Assembly (NCBI RefSeq): GCF_024170505.1
Contig: NZ_JALJYG010000014.1
Coordinates: 1-54,686, forward strand
Direction of reading: 5' to 3'
DNA from: Methanocalculus alkaliphilus
Lineage (GTDB): Archaea > Halobacteriota > Methanomicrobia > Methanomicrobiales > Methanocorpusculaceae
DNA: 54,686 nt
Part shown: one piece after another, positions 38,342 to 42,500 of the stretch
Layout of the letters: the number at the start of each line of letters is the position of its first letter
How positions within the stretch are numbered: position 1 is the stretch's first letter
Notes under the pieces: generated by a model
Told to the model about the DNA's origin: nothing
Database searches by the model: none
What the model saw: the letters and a program-made list of their open reading frames with translations, nothing else
Position numbers and translations under genes: made by a program

Positions 38342-40252
38342 TCACTCTTCCTTTTTTGGATCATAGTCGGGATCAACATCCTGGCGAACCCAGGTGACGA
38401 GATCTCTCATATCAGAGAGCCTCCTGAACTGATCCTCGACCATGAGATACATGATCAGCCCCGCCACCATGACAAGCGACATTGCCGGGAAGGTATGCCG
38501 GATCACATCAATAACCTGAGACTGCGGATACCCCAGGGTGAAGAGAGGGAAGATGACAAGGATATGGAGGGCTTCCACACCGACACCGAGGATGGCAAGC
38601 CGGAGCGGGGTGAGCGTCTCCCAGTACCTTCTGGCAACACCCCCGATGATCCCTGCTGCGACCGTTGCGATCGCACAGGGAAGCGCAGTCCAGCCTCCAA
38701 GCGAATACCGGTAGCCTCCACCGATCAGGCCGGCTGCCGCTCCGGCAAGGGGGCCGCCGATCAGGCCGGCAAGGACCGGGCCAAGATCCCGGAAGTTCAG
38801 GATGACATCATCTATCTGGAAGCCCCGTAATGTCCCATAAACCGAGAGTATACCAAATATAAGGACCAGCCAGAGGAGATCGGTTCTCGTCGCAACACCC
38901 CTCCGGTACGCCTCTGCGAGATCAGACCGAACAAAGAAGTACAGGACAAGTAAGACGATGGCAAGCCTCTCGACGAGTGGGAGTCCAAAATCAAGCAGGC
39001 TCTTCTCCTGGAGGAGGGCTATGAGAAGATAGAGACCGGACCCTGCCGCCATCACCGCAAGCCAGATCCGGGAACCCTGGTGCTTTTTTGGAAGCCTGTT
39101 ATCGATATAGATGAGGCCAAACCCGATGACCGCAAAGAGGATCGAGGAGAAGATCGAGACGTTTTTGATGAGATATTCGGGTTTTGAGATGAAGAATGCA
39201 GTAAAGATCATGGCAGAGAAGCCCAGGAGAATGAGACGGTAAAGCCTCTTTGGGGCTACCTGTACACCCCCCGCCTCCCGCAGGATTCCGCAGACCGCAC
39301 GCGCCCTGCCGTCAATTCCCGATATGACCGTGCCTGCAAGGAGGATGAATGATGAGAAGATGATGAGGGGGGCGGCATAGGGGATCGTCATGAGGATATG
39401 GCCGGAGACGGCAACGGCAGAGTTTGCCATCTCAAGGTGAGGCGCCCCCTGGTATGAAGCACCAATCGAGAGGAAGACAAAGCTCATGAATGCGATGAAT
39501 CCAAAGCCGATGAGGAGATCCCCCCGGATGATCCGCATCTTCTCCGGGAGATCATCGGTACAGGGCTTCCCTCCGGTCTTTTCGTGGAGCCAGACGGAAT
39601 AGAGGAGGATATTCAGGCCTGCGCCGACGGCACCAAGAAGCGCCATCTTCCAGAGGAGATTGTTCTCATGGATATACGGGATAAAGCCCTCTGCAACCTC
39701 AGTAAAGGGGATATGGAGTGCCGTCAGGCTGAAGATGAAGCCGACGAAGAGGAGGAGGACCATCCCAAGGATCAGGTGTTCAAACCGCTCATACGATCCT
39801 TTCCAGAGAATGACGATGATGGCAGCAAGCGTCAGGATCGCAATTATCAGGATCGGGATATCGAATGGAATGAGATAATAGAGAAAATGTGCCCCGATGA
39901 TGAGGAATCCCCCGTACGCAATCATCTCGAGGATATAGATGATCGTGATGAAGGTGACCTCCCAGTTCCGGGGACCCGGAATAGACCGGAGGCCGGAGAA
40001 GATCGTCTTTCCTGTGGCGAGGGTATACCGGGCGATACCATATGCAAAGGCATATTTATAGATGAGCGCGACGGCACATATCCAGAGGAGCGAGTATCCC
40101 GTCGCCCTCCCTGCCCCGAAGATCTCGACGATCCCGGACTCTCCCGAGACCTCGATTGCAAGGATAAGAACAGGGCCAAGGAAGAAGAGGCGCTCTGCAA
40201 TTCGTCTGCGGAACGTTGATCCGGTTGTTTCAGAGGCAGATATCTTCTGCAC
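38342..40252 (-). CDS. NRAMP-like transporter fused to a LytS-type 5TMR receptor domain
   Basis: A 636-residue membrane protein. Residues 20-400 resemble the NRAMP metal transporter fold (FFLGPVLILAIEVSGESGIVEIFGAGRATGYSLLW), but the metal-binding DPGN motif is replaced by SGESG, and the later Met-His motif is absent. Residues 420-610 match the 5TM-5TMR_LYT sensor of LytS kinases (GPVLAGLIGGPLAGAAAGLIGGGYRYSLGGWTALPCAIATVAAGIIGG). No kinase or GGDEF output follows; only a short acidic tail. The start is GTG, behind a TATA-like TTATACC. The fusion would couple a receptor to a transporter-like core. The substrate is unknown. Confidence 0.8.
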   Translation of the reverse strand: MQKISASETTGSTFRRRIAERLFFLGPVLILAIEVSGESGIVEIFGAGRATGYSLLWICAVALIYKYAFAYGIARYTLATGKTIFSGLRSIPGPRNWEVTFITIIYILEMIAYGGFLIIGAHFLYYLIPFDIPILIIAILTLAAIIVILWKGSYERFEHLILGMVLLLFVGFIFSLTALHIPFTEVAEGFIPYIHENNLLWKMALLGAVGAGLNILLYSVWLHEKTGGKPCTDDLPEKMRIIRGDLLIGFGFIAFMSFVFLSIGASYQGAPHLEMANSAVAVSGHILMTIPYAAPLIIFSSFILLAGTVISGIDGRARAVCGILREAGGVQVAPKRLYRLILLGFSAMIFTAFFISKPEYLIKNVSIFSSILFAVIGFGLIYIDNRLPKKHQGSRIWLAVMAAGSGLYLLIALLQEKSLLDFGLPLVERLAIVLLVLYFFVRSDLAEAYRRGVATRTDLLWLVLIFGILSVYGTLRGFQIDDVILNFRDLGPVLAGLIGGPLAGAAAGLIGGGYRYSLGGWTALPCAIATVAAGIIGGVARRYWETLTPLRLAILGVGVEALHILVIFPLFTLGYPQSQVIDVIRHTFPAMSLVMVAGLIMYLMVEDQFRRLSDMRDLVTWVRQDVDPDYDPKKEE

Positions 40253-40288: not shown

Positions 40289-40780
40289 TTATCTGTATAC
40301 ACGGTAGCCTGCCGTATGAAGCATCCTGAGAACCACCCTCTCCCATGCAGGATCACTCAGTTCTGCATGCTGAGCCATCTCTTCCCGGAAGAGCCGGAGG
40401 AGATCGGGATCCTCAGAGGCGAGGTGCCGTGACGCCATGATTCTCCCAACCCGCCTCCCATCCCGATCGAGGATGAGGATCCGCCAGCAGCCATAATCAC
40501 GGCAGATCTCAGGCCGTGTTGCATGGACAGAACAGTACCCCTTCCCTTCCTCCCCATCAAAGCGGAAGAAGGGGCAGGCTTCAGGGCGGTCTGCAAAGGT
40601 CCGGTGGTCATTGAAGAGGGGGAGCATCCCCGGGGCGACGGTAACGGTCGTCCGCTCACCGGTATACTCGTTTCTCACGACATACCGGTGATCACCAAGA
40701 TCCTTGATAATCCGATGGACGAGGCCGAGGTGGCTGCAACAGTCGCCGCATTGGTTGCATTCAAACGCCAGATGAATCAC
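40289..40780 (-). CDS. YkgJ-family cysteine-cluster protein
   Basis: A 163-residue protein with the ECNQCGDCCSHL motif at the N-terminus and CPFFRFDGEEGKGYCSVHATRPEICRDYGC further on. Eight or more Cys are placed to bind a zinc or iron-sulfur site (YkgJ/UPF0153). It lies behind the methyltransferase gene on the same strand after 14 bases. The function is unknown in archaea. Confidence 0.85.
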   Translation of the reverse strand: MIHLAFECNQCGDCCSHLGLVHRIIKDLGDHRYVVRNEYTGERTTVTVAPGMLPLFNDHRTFADRPEACPFFRFDGEEGKGYCSVHATRPEICRDYGCWRILILDRDGRRVGRIMASRHLASEDPDLLRLFREEMAQHAELSDPAWERVVLRMLHTAGYRVYR

Positions 40781-40794
40781 CCTCCCGATAGCCC

Positions 40795-41523
40795 TCAGTC
40801 CTGCTTCCGGAAGATCCAGCAGGCCCAGCCGAAGGCCTCCCTGCCATAGACGAGATACTCATCCTGGATCCGGGTGAGGTACTCCTCAACAAGGGGACGA
40901 TCAGGGTGGTCCGGATGGGCATCCATCCAGTCGAGGCAGTTCTGCCAGATGGCGCTCTCGTAGGCATCATGATCGGCCTCGGTTGCCCGGACGAGGCCGG
41001 CCAGTGTGAGGCCACATTCCCGGGCTCCTGAGACGAGGCCGTATTCGGTCGGGATCTCCGGCCATTGGACGGCAAATTCCGGGGATACACGATCTGAGCG
41101 CCAGTATCGATCACCGATGACGATCACCCCGCCGGGTGCGGTCATCTCTGCAAGCCGGGGGATCGCACCCTCGGCACCACCGAAGATGAAGGCAGAACCG
41201 AGGGCGACGGTGCAGTCTGCGGCTCTCTCAGGAGTCCATAGAGCCCCATCCCCTTCGATGATCCGAATCTGCCCGCCCGCACCCGATACCTCGCTCCTGG
41301 CTCTGGCTACCGAGCTCGTCCGCTCCTCAATACCGATCCCCGCAATCCCGTATGCCTCATGCCAGAGCGCAAGCAGGGTCCCGTTCCCGCAGCCGATATC
41401 ATAGACGACCGATCCGGGAGAGAGCCGGGCGAGTGAGCCCGCAAGGAGGAGCATCTCCGGGGTGGTCGGGTTCATCAGGGGAAGGCCTGCCTGGGCGATG
41501 GATTCTATCTCAGTCTCATTCAT
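40795..41523 (-). CDS. Class I SAM-dependent methyltransferase
   Basis: A 242-residue methyltransferase. Motif I is VVYDIGCGNGTLLALWHEAYG, with the acidic IGIEE loop, DGALWTPERAADCTVALGS and GGVIVIGDRYW as later motifs. The substrate is not recognised. It sits between the ROK kinase and YkgJ on the minus strand, with gaps of 29 and 14 bases. Confidence 0.88.
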   Translation of the reverse strand: MNETEIESIAQAGLPLMNPTTPEMLLLAGSLARLSPGSVVYDIGCGNGTLLALWHEAYGIAGIGIEERTSSVARARSEVSGAGGQIRIIEGDGALWTPERAADCTVALGSAFIFGGAEGAIPRLAEMTAPGGVIVIGDRYWRSDRVSPEFAVQWPEIPTEYGLVSGARECGLTLAGLVRATEADHDAYESAIWQNCLDWMDAHPDHPDRPLVEEYLTRIQDEYLVYGREAFGWACWIFRKQD

Positions 41524-41552
41524 CTGTGGTTTGTGTATGGACGTACTCCGGC

Positions 41553-42500
41553 TTAAGGAGATGATACCGGGAGAGGATCACAATCCAGCGATCCCTCTCT
41601 CCAGGCAACCACCCCTGCACCTATCAGCGGTGCATATCCGCCAAGAGGGCTGACCAGACACTCCGGAACCGGCAGGTACCGATCCACCCTGTTCACCATC
41701 GCAGGGACGAAATCAGGGTGGTTCCGTACGACGGGGCCGTCGAAGATGATCACCTCCGGGTTATATGCGGCGATGATGCTGGAGAGCCCCCGGCCGCAGA
41801 CAGCGGCAAGCTCGTTCCTGAACCGGCAGGCGACGGGATCCATGGAGGAGAGGATCGCATCAGCAGAGTCCAAAACAGGGGCCGTCTCCCCCTCTTCCTC
41901 AAGGAACCGTGCATAGAACCGGGGAATCCCGGTCCCGGAGGCATATGCCTCAAAGTGGCCTCTCCCCCCGCAGCCGCAGATGAGGCCATACCGTCCGTCC
42001 ACATAGAAGTGGCCGACCTCCCCGCCGTTGCCACCCGCACCCGAGAGGAGGCGGCCACCGGAGATGACACCGCCGCCTATCCCGGATGAGAAGGTGATAT
42101 AGACGAGATCTCCACGACCCCTGCCCGCACCGAACGCCTCTTCTGCGAGAGCAGCGGCCCGGCAGTCATTGATGAGGGTGGCGGGGCGGCCGAACCGCTC
42201 TTCAACCGGGGAGACAATCTCGATCCGGTCAAATGCCATATTCGGGGAGGAGACAATCGACCCGGACCTGAGATCCAGGGGACCGGCAGAGGCGATCCCG
42301 ATTCCTGTACCCGGAGGTGTTTTTGGGAGGATCTCATCGAGGATCGTACTCACCGCCTCTGTCACGACCAGACTTGAGCTGCCGGCAGTCGGGGTCGGGA
42401 CCCGGAGGAGAGAGGAGAGGGAGCCATGCCGATCGATGAGCCCCCCACGTATCCAGGTCGCACCGATATCGATCCCTGCCCGCAGATCCGCAGTATGCAT
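41553..42500 (-). CDS. ROK-family sugar kinase
   Basis: A 315-residue ROK protein. The N-terminal GIDIGATWIRGGLID binds ATP phosphate, FGRPATLINDCRAAALAEEAFGAGRG and YITFSSGIGGGVISGGRLL are the family core, and GEVGHFYVDGRYGLICGCGGRGHFEAY carries the zinc His-Cys-Cys cluster. ADP- or ATP-dependent glucokinase or N-acetylmannosamine kinase are possible; the substrate is unclear. It starts the group of ROK / methyltransferase / YkgJ. Confidence 0.88.
   Translation of the reverse strand: MHTADLRAGIDIGATWIRGGLIDRHGSLSSLLRVPTPTAGSSSLVVTEAVSTILDEILPKTPPGTGIGIASAGPLDLRSGSIVSSPNMAFDRIEIVSPVEERFGRPATLINDCRAAALAEEAFGAGRGRGDLVYITFSSGIGGGVISGGRLLSGAGGNGGEVGHFYVDGRYGLICGCGGRGHFEAYASGTGIPRFYARFLEEEGETAPVLDSADAILSSMDPVACRFRNELAAVCGRGLSSIIAAYNPEVIIFDGPVVRNHPDFVPAMVNRVDRYLPVPECLVSPLGGYAPLIGAGVVAWREGSLDCDPLPVSSP

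Follow-up and report, generated by a model that had tools for sequence, protein, structure and literature searches.

The analysed stretch of DNA (the window) comprises 54,686 nucleotides of the Methanocalculus alkaliphilus contig NZ_JALJYG010000014.1 and carries, on its minus strand, a gene for a 636-aa protein in which an NRAMP-like transporter core is followed by a membrane receptor module of the 5TMR type. The open reading frame starts with a GTG codon; the initial annotation, which had recognised both parts, left the coding strand unstated. The gene and its features are the following:

38342..40252, minus strand: fusion gene, 636 aa, NRAMP-like core and 5TMR receptor module (open reading frame, Pfam, dN/dS, orthologues)
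39011..40201, minus strand: NRAMP-like 11-helix core, residues 18–414 (Pfam, alignment to a solved NRAMP, hydropathy)
40133..40147, minus strand: TM1 motif SGESG, residues 36–40, at the DPGN position of NRAMPs (HMMER alignment, family alignment)
39587..39634, minus strand: TM6 segment GAVGAGLNILLYSVWL, residues 207–222, at the MPHN position of NRAMPs (HMMER alignment, family alignment)
38930..38986, minus strand: 5TMR helix H0, residues 423–441, predicted to run from outside to inside (hydropathy, K/R distribution; H0 as named in PMC11109136)
38441..38893, minus strand: 5TM-5TMR_LYT receptor module with the S-component fold, residues 454–604 (Pfam, genome search)
38675..38791, minus strand: predicted ligand-pocket segment with R488 (NFR motif), R515 and C526 (alignment read against PMC10653868)
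38345..38437, minus strand: short tail, predicted to be cytoplasmic, residues 606–636, no output domain (Pfam, hydropathy)
40289..40780, minus strand: CxxCxxCC (PF03692) protein, co-directional and upstream of the fusion across a 36-bp gap, kept in the genus (neighbourhood and Pfam; putative link)

Pfam assigned residues 47–269 to Nramp (PF01566; E 2.8e-20, 73.1 bits, cut-off 29.8) and residues 454–604 to 5TM-5TMR_LYT (PF07694; E 4.4e-36, 124.5 bits, cut-off 24.6). Both assignments agree with the initial annotation of an NRAMP-like core joined to a LYT sensor, and residues 411–636 hold a true LYT-family match rather than extra transporter helices. The NCBIfam call for the protein was also Nramp, and the PDB chains matched by a profile of the fusion family were NRAMP, MntH and NRAT only. 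The core can be aligned by HMMER to the solved NRAMP 10ky over residues 24–359, shows 11 hydropathy peaks with alternating K/R loops, and ends where stand-alone NRAMP-like homologues of ~416 aa stop. Pfam detected no kinase, GGDEF, EAL or receiver domain, as had been proposed, and the last helix is followed by only ~30 residues to the C terminus; judged by its domains, the fusion chain itself gives no kinase output. An AlphaFold2 model of the protein (8 alignment rows) was unusable, with a mean pLDDT of 36 and a pTM of 0.23.

The nearest named relative is that of Methanocalculus chunghsingensis K1F9705b (93% identity). Comparison of the window gene with a 93%-identical orthologue gave a dN/dS of 0.092 for the whole gene. 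The NRAMP half has a value of 0.065 and the 5TMR half one of 0.108, and both are under strong purifying selection. A search of the organism's own genome revealed no Nramp protein besides the fusion and one further 5TMR protein. The latter stands alone, is 233 aa long, ends in a short charged tail and lacks an output domain; its gene lies on contig C7 of this genome (L051:6071-6772, plus strand). Upstream of the fusion, at window positions 40289-42500 on the minus strand, genes for the CxxCxxCC protein, a SAM-dependent methyltransferase and a ROK-family protein are co-directional with it, with gaps of 14–36 bp. The order of the CxxCxxCC and methyltransferase genes is constant across the genus, and the group could form one operon.

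In PMC11109136, the 5TMR domain is described as an S-component fold with an extra helix H0, seven helices in total. Hydropathy and the positive-inside rule predicted for the fusion an inside N terminus, 11 transmembrane helices, an outside loop, H0 running from outside to inside, and an inside C terminus. The 11 helices of the core and the seven of the receptor module fit one consistent topology of this kind; the hydropathy scan gives 17 peaks because H2 and H3 merge. The predicted orientation of the 5TMR module agrees with that of BtsS (PMC10653868), and in relatives with several modules the repeat unit takes in the helix before H0, matching what the topology requires.

The metal site of the transporter core is altered in both its TM1 and its TM6 motif. 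In the HMMER alignment to 10ky, GESG of the fusion sits on DPGN, which upholds the earlier claim that SGESG replaces the metal-binding motif, and AGLN sits on MPHN. Across a family alignment of 40 rows, DPGN is replaced by [SA]GE[SA]G (G37 in 39, E38 in 37, G40 in 39 and E43 in 39 rows) and MPH by [SA]GL, with Ser or Ala, and Gly in one row, at the position of the metal-binding Met. G207, G210, L213, W221 and L222 of TM6 are invariant, and the TM6 motif G-x-x-G-[SA]-[GS]-L-N is, together with the TM1 motif, near-invariant across these rows. We take the glycine-rich, unwound TM1 and TM6 segments to resemble those of carboxylate-binding APC carriers. Since DraNramp coordinates its metal through D56, N59 and M230 (PMC6398981), all three metal side chains are replaced in the fusion family, and we infer from the alignments a substrate other than a transition metal. 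PF01566 contains outgroups that diverge at the metal site and have been seen as linking the NRAMPs with transporters of non-metal substrates (PMC10606218, PMC4072509, PMC9606685).

With Slc11/NRAMP proteins (MntH, DraNramp) and with the NRMT and NRAT proteins the fusion has PF01566 and the LeuT-like 11-helix core in common, but it differs from them in the replaced DPGN and MPH ligands and in the extra seven-helix receptor module; relatives of the fusion also have a binding-protein partner. The annotation of these proteins is corrected here, as they match divalent metal transporter models yet lack every metal-coordinating side chain tested.

The receptor module shares with LytS/BtsS-type receptors the 5TM-5TMR_LYT domain and, from the pyruvate pocket, the NFR motif and the R and C residues; the NxR motif of the window protein is N486-F-R488. 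BtsS residues R72, R99 and C110 correspond to R488, R515 and C526, and S113 corresponds to A529, the codon of which lies just downstream of the pocket segment. A change of S113 to Ala abolished the response of BtsS; as the fusion has Ala at this position, we do not claim specificity for pyruvate; a small anionic ligand is plausible. The fusion further departs from these receptors in having no kinase and in placing the 5TMR module at the C terminus of a transporter. The pocket residues vary across the family (R488 in 24, R515 in 33 and C526 in 28 of 40 rows), whereas the TM1 and TM6 motifs are near-invariant, suggesting that what is conserved is the permease core and not one receptor ligand. 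Helix 1 of the window protein lacks the AxxxA motif of ECF docking, which was seen in 6 of 40 family rows.

Fusion matches were found in 59 of the 199 genomes of the order, a count that includes a few NRAMP-only matches, and in 17 of 38 sampled genera (E ≤ 1e-40). One fusion lies beyond the order (G295), and a scan of viral contigs found no fusion relatives. Module content varies: the NRAMP-like part occurs alone (~416 aa) in some genomes, and the 5TMR module is present twice in G409 and G439 and three times in G295. Relatives were also checked for a kinase that might have been lost in the window gene; they are generally without a fused kinase, and 38 of 40 aligned proteins end after the 5TMR modules. 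The remaining two carry an extra soluble tail of ~300 aa without a kinase match. These tails (L073:5888-6826, minus strand, and L074:9440-10378, plus strand; genomes G473 and G477) follow two 5TMR modules and are 74% identical to each other. They were considered as degenerate kinases and rejected, with no Pfam or PDB match and an hhalign probability of 0.1% to REC-HK. A split gene in Methanocalculus relatives was likewise dismissed as biology, the break in L005 being an assembly NN and that in L006 a small loop frameshift.

Most relatives of the fusion have a partner gene. It encodes a Peripla_BP_6 protein (E 2.3e-42) of ~390–410 aa with an N-terminal hydrophobic anchor, the closest PDB matches of which are Leu/Ile/Val-binding proteins. 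Among the 29 loci that have both genes on one contig, the binding-protein gene starts within 50 bp of the fusion stop, on the same strand, in 26, with a 4-bp overlap in 12; usually it overlaps the fusion or sits at most 3 bp away. At the other three loci it lies 192 and 290 bp after the fusion (both disrupted loci) or, in one case, before it. Strong matches to the binding protein in the order (E < 1e-55) adjoin a fusion gene, except on cut contigs and in G086, which has extra paralogues. Fusions linked to a binding protein group in a single clade (25 of 25 tree rows, support 100/95), to which the window clade, on a long branch, is sister (93/90).

All 31 binding-protein rows, among which the query is counted twice, have the equivalents of LIVBP Ser79 and Thr102, and 30 of them have D or E at the Glu226 position; all three residues have roles in LIVBP. 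The LivH/M-type permease BPD_transp_2 (PF02653) was found in none of 23 genomes, of which 21 carry the binding protein, and in 12 of 14 controls. In the three binding-protein genomes checked (G301, G306 and G208) the partner is the sole Peripla_BP_6 match. Given the absence of PF02653 from the genomes checked, the binding protein is left without a Liv-type ABC transporter to serve. The window genome was searched as well and yielded neither the partner nor any Peripla_BP_6 protein, so that a dedicated binding-protein gene without an ABC partner is present in the sister clade but absent in the genome of the window. At a separate locus, L140:4795-7080 (minus strand), two LivK-type domains follow each other within a lipoprotein-like protein of 761 aa; a BPD_transp_2 permease was not found in that genome.

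A second paralogue without the binding protein occurs in G301, G408, G432, G374 and G368 (all f6), directly behind a co-directional soluble REC-HisKA_2-HATPase kinase; the four kinase-linked paralogues in the tree form one clade (support 100/99). The kinase, 365–436 aa in length, lies directly upstream of the paralogue at L084:10072-11169 (minus strand), L054:7480-8580 (plus strand) and L065:6180-7490 (plus strand). Three genomes (G411, G423 and G438; loci L134, L135 and L136) keep the kinase, but no fusion gene was found beside it, and in L134 and L135 other genes flank it. For this reason the kinase was rejected as an obligate partner and its link to the fusion is suggestive only.

We interpret the fusion as a non-metal solute transporter of the PF01566/APC type with a built-in receptor, fed by a binding protein in the sister clade, and give this interpretation about an even chance of being right. 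In close relatives, a binding protein of the amino-acid type is dedicated to the fusion and would have no other pump to feed, which, at the level of sequence, makes the protein probably a nutrient importer under the control of its own sensor and not a metal transporter. The binding protein, the loss of the TM6 ligand and the kinase-linked paralogues, all missed by the initial annotation, shift the likely substrate from a metal to an organic solute; the earlier suggestion that a receptor gates the transporter, or that the transporter itself acts as one, is still plausible.

Such a protein would belong to the secondary transporters of PF01566/APC (LeuT-fold) type and would have lost transition-metal binding. 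In the sister clade, a membrane-anchored LivK-type protein, the product of the overlapping or abutting gene, would capture an amino-acid-like solute and hand it to the NRAMP-like core, which would replace an ABC permease. Alternating access would proceed via TM1 and TM6, as the fold suggests, and the 5TMR pocket may bind a small ligand from outside the cell and thereby set the rate or coupling of transport, an allosteric control of gating. For the Methanocalculus version in the window, the binding protein may have been lost or never present, and the solute is presumably taken directly. More tentatively, and with the balance against it, the sister clade may represent a new class of binding-protein-dependent secondary transporters, in which a LeuT-fold, NRAMP-derived permease with an S-component-like receptor works with an anchored LivK-type feeder and no Liv ABC permease. 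Against the solute-transporter interpretation, the window genome has no binding protein, a paralogous clade is kinase-linked, which fits a receptor better, and the TM1 carboxylates E38 and E43 could still serve a cation.

That receptor, or transceptor without transport, would sense extracellular solutes through the NRAMP-like core and the 5TMR module, alone or together with the binding protein, and signal to a separate soluble kinase or another partner. Binding proteins are known to serve receptors, as in LuxP/LuxQ and TorT/TorS, and the one of the sister clade could act in this way with the 5TMR part. The clade of paralogues behind the REC-HisKA_2-HATPase kinase (100/99) points in the same direction, as does the description of 5TMR as a receptor domain (PMC11109136). 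However, no kinase adjoins the window gene, none is a conserved partner in the binding-protein clade, and G411, G423 and G438 keep the kinase without an adjoining fusion, with other genes beside it in L134 and L135; the best-conserved part of the protein is, moreover, the permease core. We consider a receptor without transport rather unlikely.

Distinctly unlikely, in our assessment, is a sensor-regulated divalent-cation transporter with a rebuilt metal site for Mg2+, Mn2+ or another ion, which is the general proposal in PMC11109136. It would agree with the PF01566 membership and with NRMT and NRAT relatives that move cations in spite of altered metal-site residues (PMC10115441), and the conserved new TM1 carboxylates E38 and E43 could serve a cation. 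Yet the fusion retains none of the Asp, Asn and Met ligands, whereas NRATs keep DPSN, and the binding protein found as its partner belongs to the amino-acid type. Inspection of sequences also found a ZnuABC-like ABC operon near the gene in one family, but this was rejected as a metal link, since the operon lies on the opposite strand and belongs to a wider block of conserved gene order. A subunit that acts as a scaffold or regulator, neither transporting nor sensing in the classic manner and serving, for example, to organise a membrane complex, would accommodate the amplification of 5TMR to two or three copies (G409, G439, G295) and the loss of pocket residues in several lineages; against it, the glycine-rich motifs that TM1 and TM6 place at the substrate site, which hardly vary, and the core dN/dS of 0.065 suggest an active site, and we hold this alternative to be very improbable.

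The initial annotation knew of no described system of this form, a statement that has to be withdrawn, as the same fusion has been in print since 2024 (PMC11109136, Commun Biol 2024). In the part of that paper covered here, NRAMP-5TMR is the sole transporter-5TMR fusion reported and is suggested as a bridge between ion transport and sensing; the architecture is the same, with the NRAMP-like PF01566 part first and the 5TMR module C-terminal, and the proteins are mostly archaeal. The same part takes the NRAMP portion as a divalent-metal transporter and gives no gene partners, motif loss, module amplification or taxonomic analysis of the fusion. A search of the open-licence literature found no report of a binding-protein partner, motif loss, module amplification or a kinase-linked clade. 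The LeuT fold is also that of SLC5. In the CbrA transceptor (SLC5-STAC-histidine kinase; PMC13022988, PMC7096432), transporter and sensing are united in one chain, as in the fusion, but CbrA carries its own kinase, whereas the sensor of the fusion is a membrane module with no kinase fused to it.

The binding-protein clade would share with TRAP transporters (PMC9352664, PMC9971032) secondary transport with a dedicated binding protein; unlike the fusion, TRAP systems use elevator-type QM membrane subunits and another type of binding protein, and have no NRAMP/APC fold. Transport fed by a binding protein and combined with the NRAMP/APC fold would be new if functional. If the pairing is functional, the LeuT fold would join the ABC, TRAP and TTT systems in which a binding protein feeds transport, and the receptor integrated into the permease would offer a compact, single-chain model of a transceptor.
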